Program-made: the position numbers and the translations under genes
The notes under the pieces: model-generated
What the model saw: the letters and a program-made list of their open reading frames with translations, nothing else
The model's database searches: none
Told to the model about the DNA's origin: nothing
Part shown: piece by piece, positions 3,800 to 50,430 of the stretch
How positions within the stretch are numbered: position 1 is the first letter of the stretch
Layout of the letters: each line of letters opens with the position of its first letter
NCBI GenBank assembly: GCA_900120395.1
Contig: LT635553.1
Location: forward strand, 974,254 to 1,038,253
Direction of reading: 5' to 3'
Length of the DNA stretch: 64,000 nt
Origin: Porphyromonadaceae bacterium FC4
GTDB lineage: Bacteria > Bacteroidota > Bacteroidia > Bacteroidales > Porphyromonadaceae

Positions 3800-3955
3800 T
3801 TGTCGCTTAGAGTTTTCCTATTGTCATGTGGGGTCAAATATACCACTTTTCAAAATAATACGTATTGGAGCATTTTGGTACGCGAGTGTGTCGAGGGCTT
3901 AGATGATAAGGTCGATTTTACCAGATTTTTTGCCCTTCGGGTTTAGGGCAAAAAA

Positions 3956-16227: not shown

Positions 16228-16337
16228 ATGCATTGACTCAAAATTAACGGTGTCACTTTTACTCTGTCCCAAAGTTACCTAATTCTCTTCACTTGTTTGG
16301 GATCTCGTACCCATTACTCCAGGGCTCACGCATTTGA

Positions 16338-16520
16338 AGTTTAGAGATAGTCGGTGGTGATGATGTCGGTGGGGGGGCTGAGCATTATGACATTACGGAG
16401 GAGGAGCCGGACTTTATCATCAATTACGACATCAAGTACCGCGTGGGGGACGAACTAAGGAAGGTGACAAGGTATCAAGTCCCCCTATTTTTGCCGCTCA
16501 GGGAGGGGTGGAGAATTTGA
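16338..16520 (+). pseudogene. Possible relic reading frame inside the element
   Basis: Open for 60 codons without a credible start codon (AGT TTA GAG ... ATT TGA). The middle reads like protein (AEHYDITEEEPDFIINYDIK, then YRVGDELRK and VPLFLPL), and the same frame is readable in the 49.4-kb element (DFMEEEPDFIINYDIKYRMG) up to a frame change near its start. It may be the 3' end of a gene captured by, or parental to, the element. No family recognised; it could also be non-coding. Confidence 0.3.
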
Positions 16521-16602
16521 CGGATAGAAGGGAAATGTTTCCAGTAGGAAAGAAAACGATTTGACGGATAGTAGAGATCAGTTTCCTACTGGAAACTTTT
16601 TT
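16516..16602 (+). repeat. Interspersed double-hairpin repeat, copy 3
   Basis: Units at 16516 and 16560. Unlike the canonical copies, the GATAGAAG unit comes first and GATAGTAG second, and the second hairpin carries the inverted loop (GTTTCCTACTGGAAAC). Shares both traits with copy 7, the other copy lying inside a MITE-like element. Confidence 0.88.
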
Positions 16603-16665
16603 CAGTACACGTCAGGGTCTTTTCCCTACATAAACCTTATCTATTAGAGATAGTCAATAGTTTTG

Positions 16666-47617: not shown

Positions 47618-47649
47618 CAAAGGTAGCAAAAAAATCAAATCAGCAGCAA
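47618..47649 (-). promoter_or_regulatory. Candidate promoter of the small OM protein gene
   Basis: Minus strand TTG (47649-47647), 21-base spacer, TACCTTTG (47625-47618), about 87 bases upstream of the ATG and overlapping the last codons of the pspC-like gene. Confidence 0.5.
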
Positions 47650-48699
47650 GCTTATGACTACTAACCATACTACTATGGCGACTCCCTTGACTATAGGGTT
47701 GGCTGAGCTTTTTATGATAAGTCCAACCGGAAGTACCACAACCAGGAAGATTAGTCCAAAGCCCAAGATTAGAAGGAAAAAAGAAAGAGTGATCGTCAGA
47801 GGAATGGCAAGGAATCCAGGTGTAGAAACTCTCAAGCTATCCCAATATGGTGCACCCCAATAGAAATGGTTGAAAAACAGTCCATTGCTTAGCCCGTGTA
47901 TAGCCCATATAAGACTAAGTACCACGGCGACCACTGCTAAGATGCCAACGATCCAATAGATCATTGTTCTCCGTTTAGAGTTCTTTTTGCCATCAATTGG
48001 TTTGTCAGAAGTGTGAGCCGTAAAAGTAGGTCTTGTCTTTTGTTTGGATTTGTCGAGCAACGAATGAAAAGACTTCTCTCCTTTTTTTATAGTGTTGTCA
48101 GCTTCCTCAGTTATTTTTTTCCATAGCTCTTGACTGCTTATTGGCCGACCTTCCATCTCTAGGCGTTGTTGGACGGTAATAGCTACGGGCAAAAAGATCC
48201 AAAAGGCGATGTAGAGGATCACCAGTGTCCAGTTCAGAGGTGTAAAGAGAAGTAGGATAAAAAGAAGTCGTAGAAAAATAGGGTCAATATTGAAGTAGAC
48301 GCTAAGCCCACTCAGGACTCCAGCTATCCATTTGTCAGTGGGGTGGCGGTATAGTTTGCGCTCGGGGAGTACAGTTTGACTGCCGGTCTGTGCTGCTTCT
48401 GCATTGTTTGTACTGAAGCCTCCACTCATGGACTCTTCTGCAATTACCGCTTCGAGAGGCCCCAGTTGGGTGATTGCTTCTTTCGTCATCTCTACGGTCA
48501 CAAGTGCATCAAGCCCTTGACTCTTTTCCCATAAGATGTCGCTCAGACGGTATTCGAAGTCTTCAACAATTTCTCCATCCGGATCTTGCGCAGCATAGTG
48601 TTGTCGGATATTCGTGATATAGGTGTCTAGCATCGTATATGCCGATTCATCTATCTGGAAAACACGGCTGCCGAGGTTGACAAAAAATGACTTTTCCAT
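47635..48699 (-). CDS. PspC-domain membrane protein
   Basis: A 354-residue protein. Residues 1-90 are a soluble segment resembling the N-terminal part of Bacteroidetes PspC proteins (FFVNLGSRVFQIDESAYTMLDTYITNIR); 115-175 is the PspC domain (KLYRHPTDKWIAGVLSGLSVYF, then a membrane hairpin); a Lys-rich linker (about 215-245) and three or more C-terminal transmembrane helices follow. Likely an envelope-stress sensor or effector at the inner membrane. Its start is 15 bases after the padR stop, so padR-pspC is probably an autoregulated operon, a common pairing in this phylum. Confidence 0.85.
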   Translation of the reverse strand: MEKSFFVNLGSRVFQIDESAYTMLDTYITNIRQHYAAQDPDGEIVEDFEYRLSDILWEKSQGLDALVTVEMTKEAITQLGPLEAVIAEESMSGGFSTNNAEAAQTGSQTVLPERKLYRHPTDKWIAGVLSGLSVYFNIDPIFLRLLFILLLFTPLNWTLVILYIAFWIFLPVAITVQQRLEMEGRPISSQELWKKITEEADNTIKKGEKSFHSLLDKSKQKTRPTFTAHTSDKPIDGKKNSKRRTMIYWIVGILAVVAVVLSLIWAIHGLSNGLFFNHFYWGAPYWDSLRVSTPGFLAIPLTITLSFFLLILGFGLIFLVVVLPVGLIIKSSANPIVKGVAIVVWLVVISLLLI

Positions 48700-48714: not shown

Positions 48715-49119
48715 TTAGTTATCCTTTTCTACGAATAGTTGATCACAGTCTCTGTTTTCAAAAGGAGAAATCTCGGGGTAGTTATTTGTCCCTTTCTCAA
48801 GAGCAGTGATTGATTGACGCATCTCACTCCATGCACTGGATAGTTGCTGCAGCCACTCATGCCCTTCTTTCGTTAGTACATAGTACTTTCTGGGTGGCCC
48901 CTGTGGACTTTCCTCCCAGGTATAATCCAAGAATCCATCCTTTCGTAAGCGAGTTAGTAAAGGATAGAGTGTTCCTTCTACCACGATAAGATTGTGATCC
49001 TTTAGTACTTCCAAAATATCCGCACTGTATGAACGTCTCTGGTTGAGTATGAGTAGTATACAGTACTCTAGGATTCCCTTCCTCATCTGGGATATTGATT
49101 TTGCCTGTATATCATTCAT
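48715..49119 (-). CDS. PadR-family transcriptional regulator
   Basis: A 134-residue regulator with the PadR winged helix: GILEYCILLILNQRRSYSADILEVLKDHNLIVVEGTLYPLLTRLRKDGFLDY, then WEESPQGPPRKYYVLTKEGHEWL, and a short C-terminal dimer helix. PadR proteins usually repress themselves and an adjacent membrane gene, here the pspC-like gene downstream. The inducer is unknown. Its promoter is a strong TTG-N20-TACCTTTG and has a MITE inserted directly upstream. Confidence 0.9.
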   Translation of the reverse strand: MNDIQAKSISQMRKGILEYCILLILNQRRSYSADILEVLKDHNLIVVEGTLYPLLTRLRKDGFLDYTWEESPQGPPRKYYVLTKEGHEWLQQLSSAWSEMRQSITALEKGTNNYPEISPFENRDCDQLFVEKDN

Positions 49120-49152: not shown

Positions 49153-49183
49153 CAAAGGTACACTAACCTTAGGTATTTTGCAA
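49153..49183 (-). promoter_or_regulatory. Promoter of padR-pspC
   Basis: Minus strand TTG (49183-49181), 20-base spacer, TACCTTTG (49160-49153): a full match, 34 bases upstream of the padR ATG. The MITE at 49190-49542 starts only 7 bases beyond the -33 box. Confidence 0.6.
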
Positions 49184-49189
49184 TGCATA

Positions 49190-49542
49190 GTACCAGGGCT
49201 CACGTATTTGAAGTTTAGAGATAGTCGGTGGTGATGATGTCGGGGGGTGACGTGTACTTAAAAAGTTTCCAGTAGGAAACAGATCTCTACTATCCGTCAA
49301 ATCGTTTTCTTTCCTACTGAAAACATTTCCCTTCTATCCGTTAAATTTTCTACCCCTCCTCGAGCGGCAAAAATAGGGGGACTTGGTGCCTTGTCGTCTT
49401 CTTTAGTTCGTCTCCCATACGGTACTTGATGTCATAATTGATGATAAAGTCCGGCTCCTCCTCCATAAAGTCATAATGCTCAGTCCCCACCGACATCATC
49501 AACACCGACTATCTCTAAACTTCAAATGAGTGAGCCCTGTAC
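49190..49542 (-). mobile_element. 353-bp MITE with 53/54-bp terminal inverted repeats
   Basis: Left arm 49190-49243 and right arm 49490-49542 are inverted copies of each other with about three mismatches and one missing base. Between them lie repeat copy 7 and a 140-bp segment shared with the 16.3-kb element. If the arms begin CAGGGCTCA, the element is flanked by TAC on both sides, a possible 3-bp target duplication. It fills the gap 49120-49548 apart from the padR promoter. No transposase is encoded. Confidence 0.8.
49261..49347 (-). repeat. Interspersed double-hairpin repeat, copy 7
   Basis: Minus-strand copy inside the MITE. Unit order GATAGAAG then GATAGTAG, with the inverted hairpin loop (GTTTCCTACTGGAAAC), as in copy 3. 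Confidence 0.9.
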
Positions 49543-49548
49543 AACCTG

Positions 49549-50430
49549 TTAGGCGTTTGTCAGATTGTAGATGCTGAGTTGTTCTAGCGGAATGTGTCCT
49601 ATCTCGGCTGCCACCTCAGAAAAGGGACTCCCCGGGGTGGTGAGGATCTTTCTTGTATTAGCTAGAGCTAGGAGTTCGCCGAAACTTTCAATAACTCCCT
49701 CTTCAGACTCCTGAGAACTAATAGAGAAGGGGGCAAAAACATTATCACCAAAAAGCGTTTGGAGCCGCTCTCGCTCATCCATGGAGGCGGTTGCGACAAA
49801 GAAACGGGTGGTGGGGTCTGCCTCAAGCATAGTCTGCATTTTTTTGATGAAGAGGTCTGTCGGGCTTTCTTGTTGGCTAGCTTCACTTGGAGTCCGATTG
49901 ATATGGACCCCAACCACATTCTCTGACCAACCTGACATTCGGGAGTTGCGTATATTTGTAACCTCTACTGTTGGCTCGATAGTCTTGTACATCCCTCTTT
50001 CTTTTATGAAGGGTTGGTTCGTAGCGACAAGGCTTAGTTCACGAGGAGCTTGTAGGTGTTGTATGAGTTCGCGACGATTCTCGGTAAGCAGTGTGCGTAC
50101 CTTTTTGGGAGAAATAAAGCGATCGTAACGGAGAAGGATAAAAGGTGCGGGTAAGAAAAGGTTTGCCTTTCGCGGAGTATCGTTGAATAACCAATCTCTC
50201 CAAGTCGCCTCCCTGATTGTAATCGAAGAGGGGACATGTTTGGGGGACAAGGTGAAGAGCCGACTGTAGGAGCAGTCAAAATTATCCGTCCGAAACCATA
50301 TGATTTCAGCCTCTTTGTCTGTATTCTTTAGCACTTCAATAAAAGAGGCTATAGTCCGGATACGTTTAGCTATACCACTAAAAGGGATGAGAGAAGTCTT
50401 GCCTATTTTATGTTGTTTGTCGCTTTTCAT
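49549..50430 (-). CDS. Putative glycosyltransferase (fucosyltransferase-like)
   Basis: A 293-residue protein without signal peptide or membrane helix. The central VVGVHINRTPSE (near residue 178) resembles the VGVHIRRxD motif of GT11/GT23/O-fucosyltransferase-like enzymes, where the Arg contacts the nucleotide sugar; later RFFVATASMDERERLQTLFGDN and TTPGSPFSEVAAEIG fit the second Rossmann domain and its donor loop. Its ATG overlaps the stop of the flippase by 4 bases, so it is cotranslated with a polysaccharide exporter, supporting a role in surface glycan assembly. The acceptor and sugar are unknown. The call rests on motif and context only. Confidence 0.55.
   Translation of the reverse strand: MKSDKQHKIGKTSLIPFSGIAKRIRTIASFIEVLKNTDKEAEIIWFRTDNFDCSYSRLFTLSPKHVPSSITIREATWRDWLFNDTPRKANLFLPAPFILLRYDRFISPKKVRTLLTENRRELIQHLQAPRELSLVATNQPFIKERGMYKTIEPTVEVTNIRNSRMSGWSENVVGVHINRTPSEASQQESPTDLFIKKMQTMLEADPTTRFFVATASMDERERLQTLFGDNVFAPFSISSQESEEGVIESFGELLALANTRKILTTPGSPFSEVAAEIGHIPLEQLSIYNLTNA

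Follow-up and report, generated by a model that had tools for sequence, protein, structure and literature searches.

Between a padR-family regulator gene of Porphyromonadaceae bacterium FC4 and the gene upstream of it lies a short segment bounded by inverted repeats, which raises the question of whether this segment is a mobile element, from which parts it was assembled and what it does to the neighbouring promoter. The segment was analysed within a stretch of 64,000 nucleotides (the window; C4:974254-1038253 in a host assembly of 2.12 Mb and 4 contigs). The original prediction described a miniature inverted-repeat transposable element (MITE) of 353 bp at positions 49190-49542, with terminal inverted repeats (TIRs) of about 54 bp, situated 7 bases from the -33 box of padR and 6 bases from the stop codon of a glycosyltransferase gene. 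A MITE of this form is borne out by arms of 54 nt each, which are 93% complementary and separated by 238 nt, and by a dispersed family with identical ends, even though the true bounds lie slightly inward and reduce the element to 346 bp (Table 1). No transposase ORF is present and the TIR reads CAGGGCTCACGC. Measured from the revised bounds, the gap to the TTGC taken as the padR -33 box is 10 bases, and the gap to the glycosyltransferase stop codon is 9 bases, which agrees with the 6 bases counted from 49542. The 'copy 7' that had been placed between the arms is real and corresponds to a two-unit repeat present elsewhere in the window.

Table 1. Coordinates of the features in and around the element, given as window positions.
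Feature	Position	Strand	Remarks
354-aa gene beside padR	47635..48699	-	name pspC from the original prediction
padR-family regulator gene	48715..49119	-	PF03551, E 1.1e-18
-7 box TACCTTTG of padR	49153..49160	-	intact
Operator-like palindrome GTACTATGCATTGCAAAATAC upstream of padR	49173..49193	-	abuts the MITE end; intact
Complete MITE copy (L001)	49194..49539	.	346 bp, without 10-bp target duplication
Left arm	49194..49247	+	about 55 bp align with the transposase-3' end of the G014 ISAs1 element; other end 19 bp only
TGACGTGTAC (GTACACGTCA on the - strand)	49248..49257	+	transposase-side module missing past here, extent varies by copy
Two-unit host repeat, 'copy 7'	49261..49350	-	44-bp period; TTTGACGGATAG ... 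TTTCC-N4-GGAAA twice
Hairpin plus T5, terminator-like	49265..49280	-	at chance level
Captured 3' portion of a methyltransferase-like gene (type IIG/N6-adenine)	49410..49490	-	27 codons with recognisable homology
Right arm	49486..49539	-	aligns likewise with the transposase-3' end of the G014 ISAs1 element
293-aa gene, earlier called glycosyltransferase	49549..50430	-	ends 9 bp from the MITE; 0 Pfam families above cut-off
Second window copy (L002)	16320..16614	-	one arm, methyltransferase piece, host repeat; stops right after CACGTCA

For the TIR pattern, 43 matches were counted across the host genome (24 forward and 19 reverse, at most 3 mismatches in 25) and the reversed-pattern control gave 0, so the repeat occurs far beyond chance. 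With the 353-bp stretch as query, at least 40 places were scored from 269 first-look candidates, and the family size is about 40. Mapping of 42 loci revealed a recurrent order of modules, which runs TIR, methyltransferase piece, repeat, transposase remnant, TIR, with some copies truncated. Homogenisation between the arms of an element is marginal (within elements 0.878, between elements 0.852, permutation p 0.033). A lack of related terminal repeats in the genus, which the original prediction had named as evidence against a MITE, was found for the MITE DNA, which is absent from all 11 congeners (12 genus genomes searched including the host; one congener 53% complete), but not for ISAs1 elements, which are present. 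Plasmid and phage collections yielded no match to the MITE DNA and viral contigs 0 matches to a TIR 21-mer, both in collections that may omit records close to the host. A single exact 20-mer match to the TIR was detected in a Chthoniobacter record, which by estimate is about the chance expectation. At L063 (C4:1632842), a solitary, diverged TIR (3 of 25 bases mismatched) was observed in 1.7 kb of sequence from which the other MITE modules are absent, and this may be a solo ISAs1 end.

When up to 2 mismatches are allowed and the best of a few small offsets is taken, direct repeats of 10 bp flank 11 of the 15 two-armed copies, and in a cross-locus control 3 of about 1,110 end pairs match equally well. 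Inspection by eye added a 9-bp duplication with one mismatch at L008, a flank repeat of 20 bp with 2 mismatches at L015, and AATCCATAAT on both sides of L070/L060, the second arm of which has decayed. The 10-bp duplication is absent from L001 (the window copy) and from L016, and no recombination partner carrying the missing flank of the window copy was found among 48 ends. The TAC triplets noted in the original prediction at both ends of the element are present; as a target duplication they were rejected, and since the family makes 10-bp duplications and the window copy has none, a chance triplet is the best reading. The padR-side TAC belongs to the operator-like palindrome.

The length of these duplications and the sequence of the ends point to a named family of insertion sequences. 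ISAs1 elements have CAGGG termini and generate duplications of 8-10 bp, a rule that was borne out by the ISAs1 loci of relatives. At 6 of the 34 loci scanned in the family (L199, L201, L202, L203, L205 and L219), paired CAGGG ends in inverted orientation are bordered by exact 10-bp duplications and the transposase frames are stop-free and comprise 382-392 residues, and a duplication matching at 9/10 was found at the ISAs1 locus L217. The termini of the elements in relatives read CAGGGCTGACGCATT/CAGGGCTCACGCATT, and the MITE ends CAGGGCTCACGCATTTGAA compare with CAGGGCTGACGCATTAAA/ATAA of these elements. A TIR search of 38 family genomes (at most 2 mismatches in 20) identified, in a different genus of the same family (G014), an inverted pair of the 20-bp MITE ends with 1 mismatch each and a span of 1,323 bp; the MITE ends thus share 19/20 bases with this ISAs1 element. 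Its two ORFs match the ISAs1 transposase model NF033564 of NCBIfam above the cut-off (3.8e-23 and 3.1e-28). In Pfam they reach 73.1 bits for PF13808 and 23.9 bits for PF01609, and because the latter value barely passes the cut-off of 23, PF13808 is the more telling profile. The search for an autonomous element with the same TIRs, which had been suggested as a check, therefore produced an ISAs1 relative, but one whose transposase is split over two ORFs (taken as they stand, unjoined), and no intact autonomous element with exactly the MITE ends was found in the 38 family genomes.

A fossil of the transposase itself is preserved in the long MITE copies, in which the TIR-terminated stretch encodes the consensus peptide FFLERLKKKKKRALAALQKINATKAPTDIITTDYL, a remnant of the last ~35 codons. 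This peptide agrees at 77% over 35 residues with the C-terminus of the G014 transposase and at 72-74% with the remnants in L185-L187 (G020, G034); it is a consensus from which individual copies deviate, several of them out of frame, and the window copy lacks the remnant. The sequence of the ends, the length of the duplications and the transposase fossil concur in deriving the MITE from ISAs1, and a first-pass MITE is now tied to a named IS family. The host genome was screened for transposases of PF01609, PF13808 and PF01797. PF13808 and PF01609 gave 0 matches there, with controls positive in 3 and 9 of 14 genomes, and across the family PF13808 was found in 23 of 38 genomes, in 19 of them above the cut-off. 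As the host assembly yielded no ISAs1 transposase of either profile, the MITE family looks stranded. Miniature elements of ISAs1 type were also seen by eye in other genomes, namely L189 (G001), with the TIR CAGGGGTGACGCATT and the 10-bp duplication AATCCGCCGG, and L192 (G019), which measures 141 bp and has a 9-bp duplication; L188 (G001) is a possible further example.

The arms deviate from what is expected of an IS that has merely lost its interior. Both window arms and the long arm of L013 were tested against the ends of the G014 ISAs1 element. A simple internal-deletion derivative would have two different IS ends, yet both window arms correspond to the transposase-3' end, along about 55 bp as against 19 bp for the 5' end, and about 118 bp of the L013 long arm also align with the transposase-3' end. 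The same IS end thus occurs twice, in inverted orientation, and the MITE is not a simple internal IS deletion.

Part of the DNA enclosed by the two ends derives from the tail of a gene. Read on the - strand, the family consensus AEHYDFTEEEPDFIINYDIKYRMGDE of this piece is 76% identical over 29 residues to the extreme C-terminus of large DNA methyltransferases. The matching plasmid proteins (two records) have 1,100 and 1,088 residues and are type IIG restriction-methyltransferases according to PADLOC. All 17 host-genome matches to the methyltransferase protein fall within its last 80 residues; the catalytic region had no host-genome match in the protein search, and the MITE piece comprises the final codons only. 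A profile search of 295 genomes of the order scored 2 matches in the host genome. Because small ORFs with the C-terminal region alone occur in G085:C93, G120:C146 and G195:C25 (among the matches listed), the captured piece may stem from a short independent gene instead of a full methyltransferase. The frame is open in several copies. Coding constraint on it was considered and is unsupported, as changes are equal across the codon positions in 32 aligned stretches (46/858, 51/865 and 51/870, or 5.4, 5.9 and 5.9%); relative to the window copy, 13 single-base and 10 three-base deletions were counted. The piece therefore looks like a drifting passenger, although it differs somewhat less (148 of 2,593 positions, 5.7%) than the 44 bases beyond it (114 of 1,323, 8.6%).

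The second enclosed component is a 90-bp core, which adjoins the methyltransferase piece and consists of two units 44 bp apart. Its pattern TTTGACGGATAGNAG has 498 matches in the genome at no more than 1 mismatch and 0 in the control, and the single-unit pattern has 0 exact matches in viral contigs. Contig C3 and the window together contain 56 two-unit loci, 50 of which lie outside crude ORF calls and 6 within a called ORF. This density of about one locus per 7-8 kb extrapolates to 250-300 genomic sites. Within the window, the repeat is found at positions 3955, 10923, 16515, 27176, 36142, 45107, 49345 and 54120. Removal of two off-register rows reduced an initial sample of 58 rows to 56, and 49 'other' copies remained after subtraction of the MITE-borne and the most mismatched ones. 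In these 49 copies without MITE tail, 57 of the 90 columns reach a uniformity of 95% or more, and conservation drops steeply at either side. The loop of the first hairpin reads AGTA in 35/35 MITE-borne copies and in 46/47 of the others listed, while that of the second reads AGTA or TACT, with TACT in 13/35 MITE-borne and 6/49 other copies. Hairpin flipping in the host repeat is possible.

The outer end of the repeat coincides with the place at which many copies have lost sequence. A motif like GTACACGTCA marks this end at 35 of the 42 loci examined and at 35 of the 39 MITE-type loci; of the loci without it, L063, L068 and L071 fall outside this form of MITE, and L011, L023, L064 and L065 are MITE copies with the break elsewhere. 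In 19 copies the ISAs1 module follows directly after the motif (gap 0-3 nt), and it is entered at 11 different offsets (0, 1, 3, 12, 13, 16, 38, 50, 77, 102 and 103), the 7 copies at offset 0 or 1 being undeleted. In 15 further copies the motif is followed by sequence scored as flank, although one of these (L072) actually enters the module at offset 102, below the score cut. At L030 the module resumes 7 nt past the motif, and in the window copy, which has lost the transposase remnant, the arm comes immediately after it. Ten copies were aligned across the deletion point. Since the offsets differ after a shared motif, the left deletion point is common to most copies and the right one is variable. 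Half-elements without right arm and duplication are accounted for as the longest of these deletions. Microhomology at nine deletion offsets was not above background (mean 0.67 at these junctions into the module vs 0.86 over all positions). As a tentative and rather doubtful proposal, the MITE family might be regarded as the vehicle for a constrained 90-bp site whose outer end, CACGTCA, is where DNA ends form. If true, a host repeat would be the seat of site-specific breakage or of adjacent deletion, by which transposons are trimmed on one side.

The original prediction expected that the insertion might alter control of padR-pspC, an effect that is hypothetical. The box TACCTTTG, which we take to be a Bacteroidota-type -7 promoter motif, and the palindrome at 49173-49193, presumably a candidate PadR operator, are both intact, and the last base of the MITE immediately precedes the palindrome. 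Upstream of padR in ten congeners, palindromes were compared by eye; eight are like GTA/GTT..TTTG/TATG..TTGCA.A.TAC, and G001 and G006 have a longer variant. The -7-like box below the palindrome is mostly TAnnTTTG in these congeners, with TATCTTG in three. The comparison of padR upstream regions that had been proposed as a check was made with congeners and showed that the MITE is absent upstream of their padR genes, but an exact empty site was not obtained, as the glycosyltransferase neighbour was not found in the 1.5 kb flanks.

From comparison of the ends, the target duplications, the two gene remnants and the modular order, it is very probable that the window copy belongs to an ISAs1-family MITE in which one IS end stands twice around foreign DNA, and which was mobilised in trans and has lost its source element. 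The transposase-3' end of an ISAs1 element would have been placed in inverted orientation on either side of foreign DNA, made up of a type IIG methyltransferase-like 3' end followed by one two-unit host repeat. A trans-acting transposase would then have acted on the CAGGGCTCACGCATTTGAA ends, each insertion of a copy creating a 10-bp target duplication. We infer both the mobilisation in trans and the loss of the source, the latter from a host assembly that yielded no ISAs1 transposase. The window copy would subsequently have lost its transposase remnant from the point right after CACGTCA, and its duplication was lost or was never recognisable, possibly because one flank was rearranged later. 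The missing duplication would also suit an inverted duplication formed at this locus by recombination or repair, without any transposed element, and yet the ends shared by about 40 dispersed copies, the 10-bp duplications that flank 11 of the 15 two-armed ones and the homology to ISAs1 make such a local event hardly credible. Insertion of the ISAs1-derived MITE would have displaced the former sequence upstream of the padR operator and put folding DNA between the upstream transcript and padR, with a probably modest effect on the neighbour, the padR promoter itself being spared. The fold predicted for the - strand of the MITE (-148.3 kcal/mol) far exceeds that of 100 shuffles (z -12) and, together with the hairpin plus T5 at 49280-49265, speaks for a MITE that insulates or terminates transcription on the way from the upstream gene to padR. 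The hairpin-rich MITE could indeed separate the transcript of the upstream gene from padR. We nevertheless regard insulation as an unlikely main role, because the 54-bp arms account for the strong fold and terminator-like sites are unenriched in the region (2 found, 1.8 expected). A sigma-70 promoter scan gave 3 sites vs 2.6 expected. On a crude gene map, the repeat is co-oriented with tandem genes at 13 loci, opposed to them at 11 and located between divergent genes at 15, which argues against termination as its general role.

A benefit to the host may instead lie in the repeat, the MITE delivering a working chromosomal site (protein-binding or structural) that selection retains while the rest of the element decays. 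The 35 MITE-borne repeats differ at 28/1,995 positions (1.4%) in the 57 conserved columns and at 169/1,155 (14.6%) in the other 33. In 31 copies picked solely for their methyltransferase module, 46/1,767 (2.6%) and 142/1,023 (13.9%) of the positions differ, and the rate of the methyltransferase piece is intermediate between the conserved and variable columns of the repeat. The loci are also spaced more evenly than random intergenic picks in C3 (CV 0.63 vs 0.88, p 0.0035) and in the window (CV 0.32 vs 0.64, p 0.0135), in a test that rests on crude ORFs as gene calls, 6 of the 56 loci being inside a called ORF. These contrasts favour a useful repeat; against it, the screen selecting the 49 repeats used many of the tested conserved columns, even though most copies were well inside its limits, and a binding protein and its function are purely hypothetical. 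Gene conversion among the repeat loci would fit too, including the high rate at the variable columns of the pool. The repeat could thus be kept in shape either by selection or by gene conversion with the genomic pool, and its usefulness to the host is conceivable, with the balance lying somewhat against it. If the conservation and the anchored deletions are true and not the product of gene conversion, the approximately 40 copies of the ISAs1-derived MITE constitute a natural experiment, in which the function of an abundant repeat would be testable because the same 90-bp site sits at dozens of loci beside freely drifting sequence. The most interesting remainder of the analysis is the host repeat within the MITE, along with the point at its outer end from which most copies are deleted.

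Set against known systems, the window element is a real MITE of a known kind and ISAs1-derived; its same-end, gene-capturing build sets it apart as a variant, a bacterial MITE made from one IS end used twice around a captured gene tail. With ISAs1 insertion sequences (NF033564; PF13808 + PF01609) the family shares CAGGGCT.ACGCATT ends, 10-bp duplications and, in long copies, the remnant of the transposase C-terminus, and it differs from them in the lack of a transposase gene, in arms that both come from one IS end and in the captured foreign DNA. In the accessible part of one report, the MITEs of P. gingivalis comprise BrickBuilt, MITE239, MITEPgRS/MITE464 and MITE700, with TIRs likened to IS5-family ISPg elements (GAGACC.., ACGTCA..) (PMC4596501). 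The elements of that report are likewise short and non-autonomous with IS-like TIRs, in what is inferred to be the same bacterial group, but their TIRs are of the IS5-family ISPg type and those found here of the ISAs1 type (PMC4596501, accessible part). BrickBuilt, as described in the same part, resembles the window element in having an internal direct repeat and is distinguished from it by 23-nt tandem repeats of variable number instead of two units at 44 bp, by a TIR like GAGACCTTTGCA instead of CAGGGCTCACGC, which places the window element outside BrickBuilt, and by the absence there of a reported transposase remnant, which is present here (PMC4596501). The Tn3-derived inverted-repeat miniature elements (TIMEs) and mosaic non-autonomous transposons also have transposon ends around other DNA, to go by the title of the report, but theirs are Tn3-family ends and the likeness is one of description, not of sequence (PMC4133298). 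ISAs1 is absent from the text of a 2024 review of prokaryotic MITEs (PMC10969869). No ISAs1-derived MITE appeared in the literature as covered by titles and abstract openings, a weak screen with most subscription papers outside it.

The internal repeat also invites comparison with a different class of genomic repeats, as it is short, palindromic, abundant and mostly intergenic and the genome has one Y1 transposase gene. REP/BIME elements are short palindromic repeats linked to a RAYT transposase and have neither TIRs nor duplications, whereas the MITE has both, and we know of no REP with a two-unit 44-bp plan. The sole Y1 transposase gene (L139, C4:787659-788000) encodes 142 aa and is located amid closely packed REP-like palindromes, which are G+C-rich and of various kinds. 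A REP/RAYT origin of the MITE is unsupported, the palindromes flanking the Y1 gene being of this other, G+C-rich type. One two-unit repeat lies about 0.75 kb beyond the Y1 stop codon, outside the other palindromes, and palindromes resembling those at L139 also adjoin other loci, for example L034.
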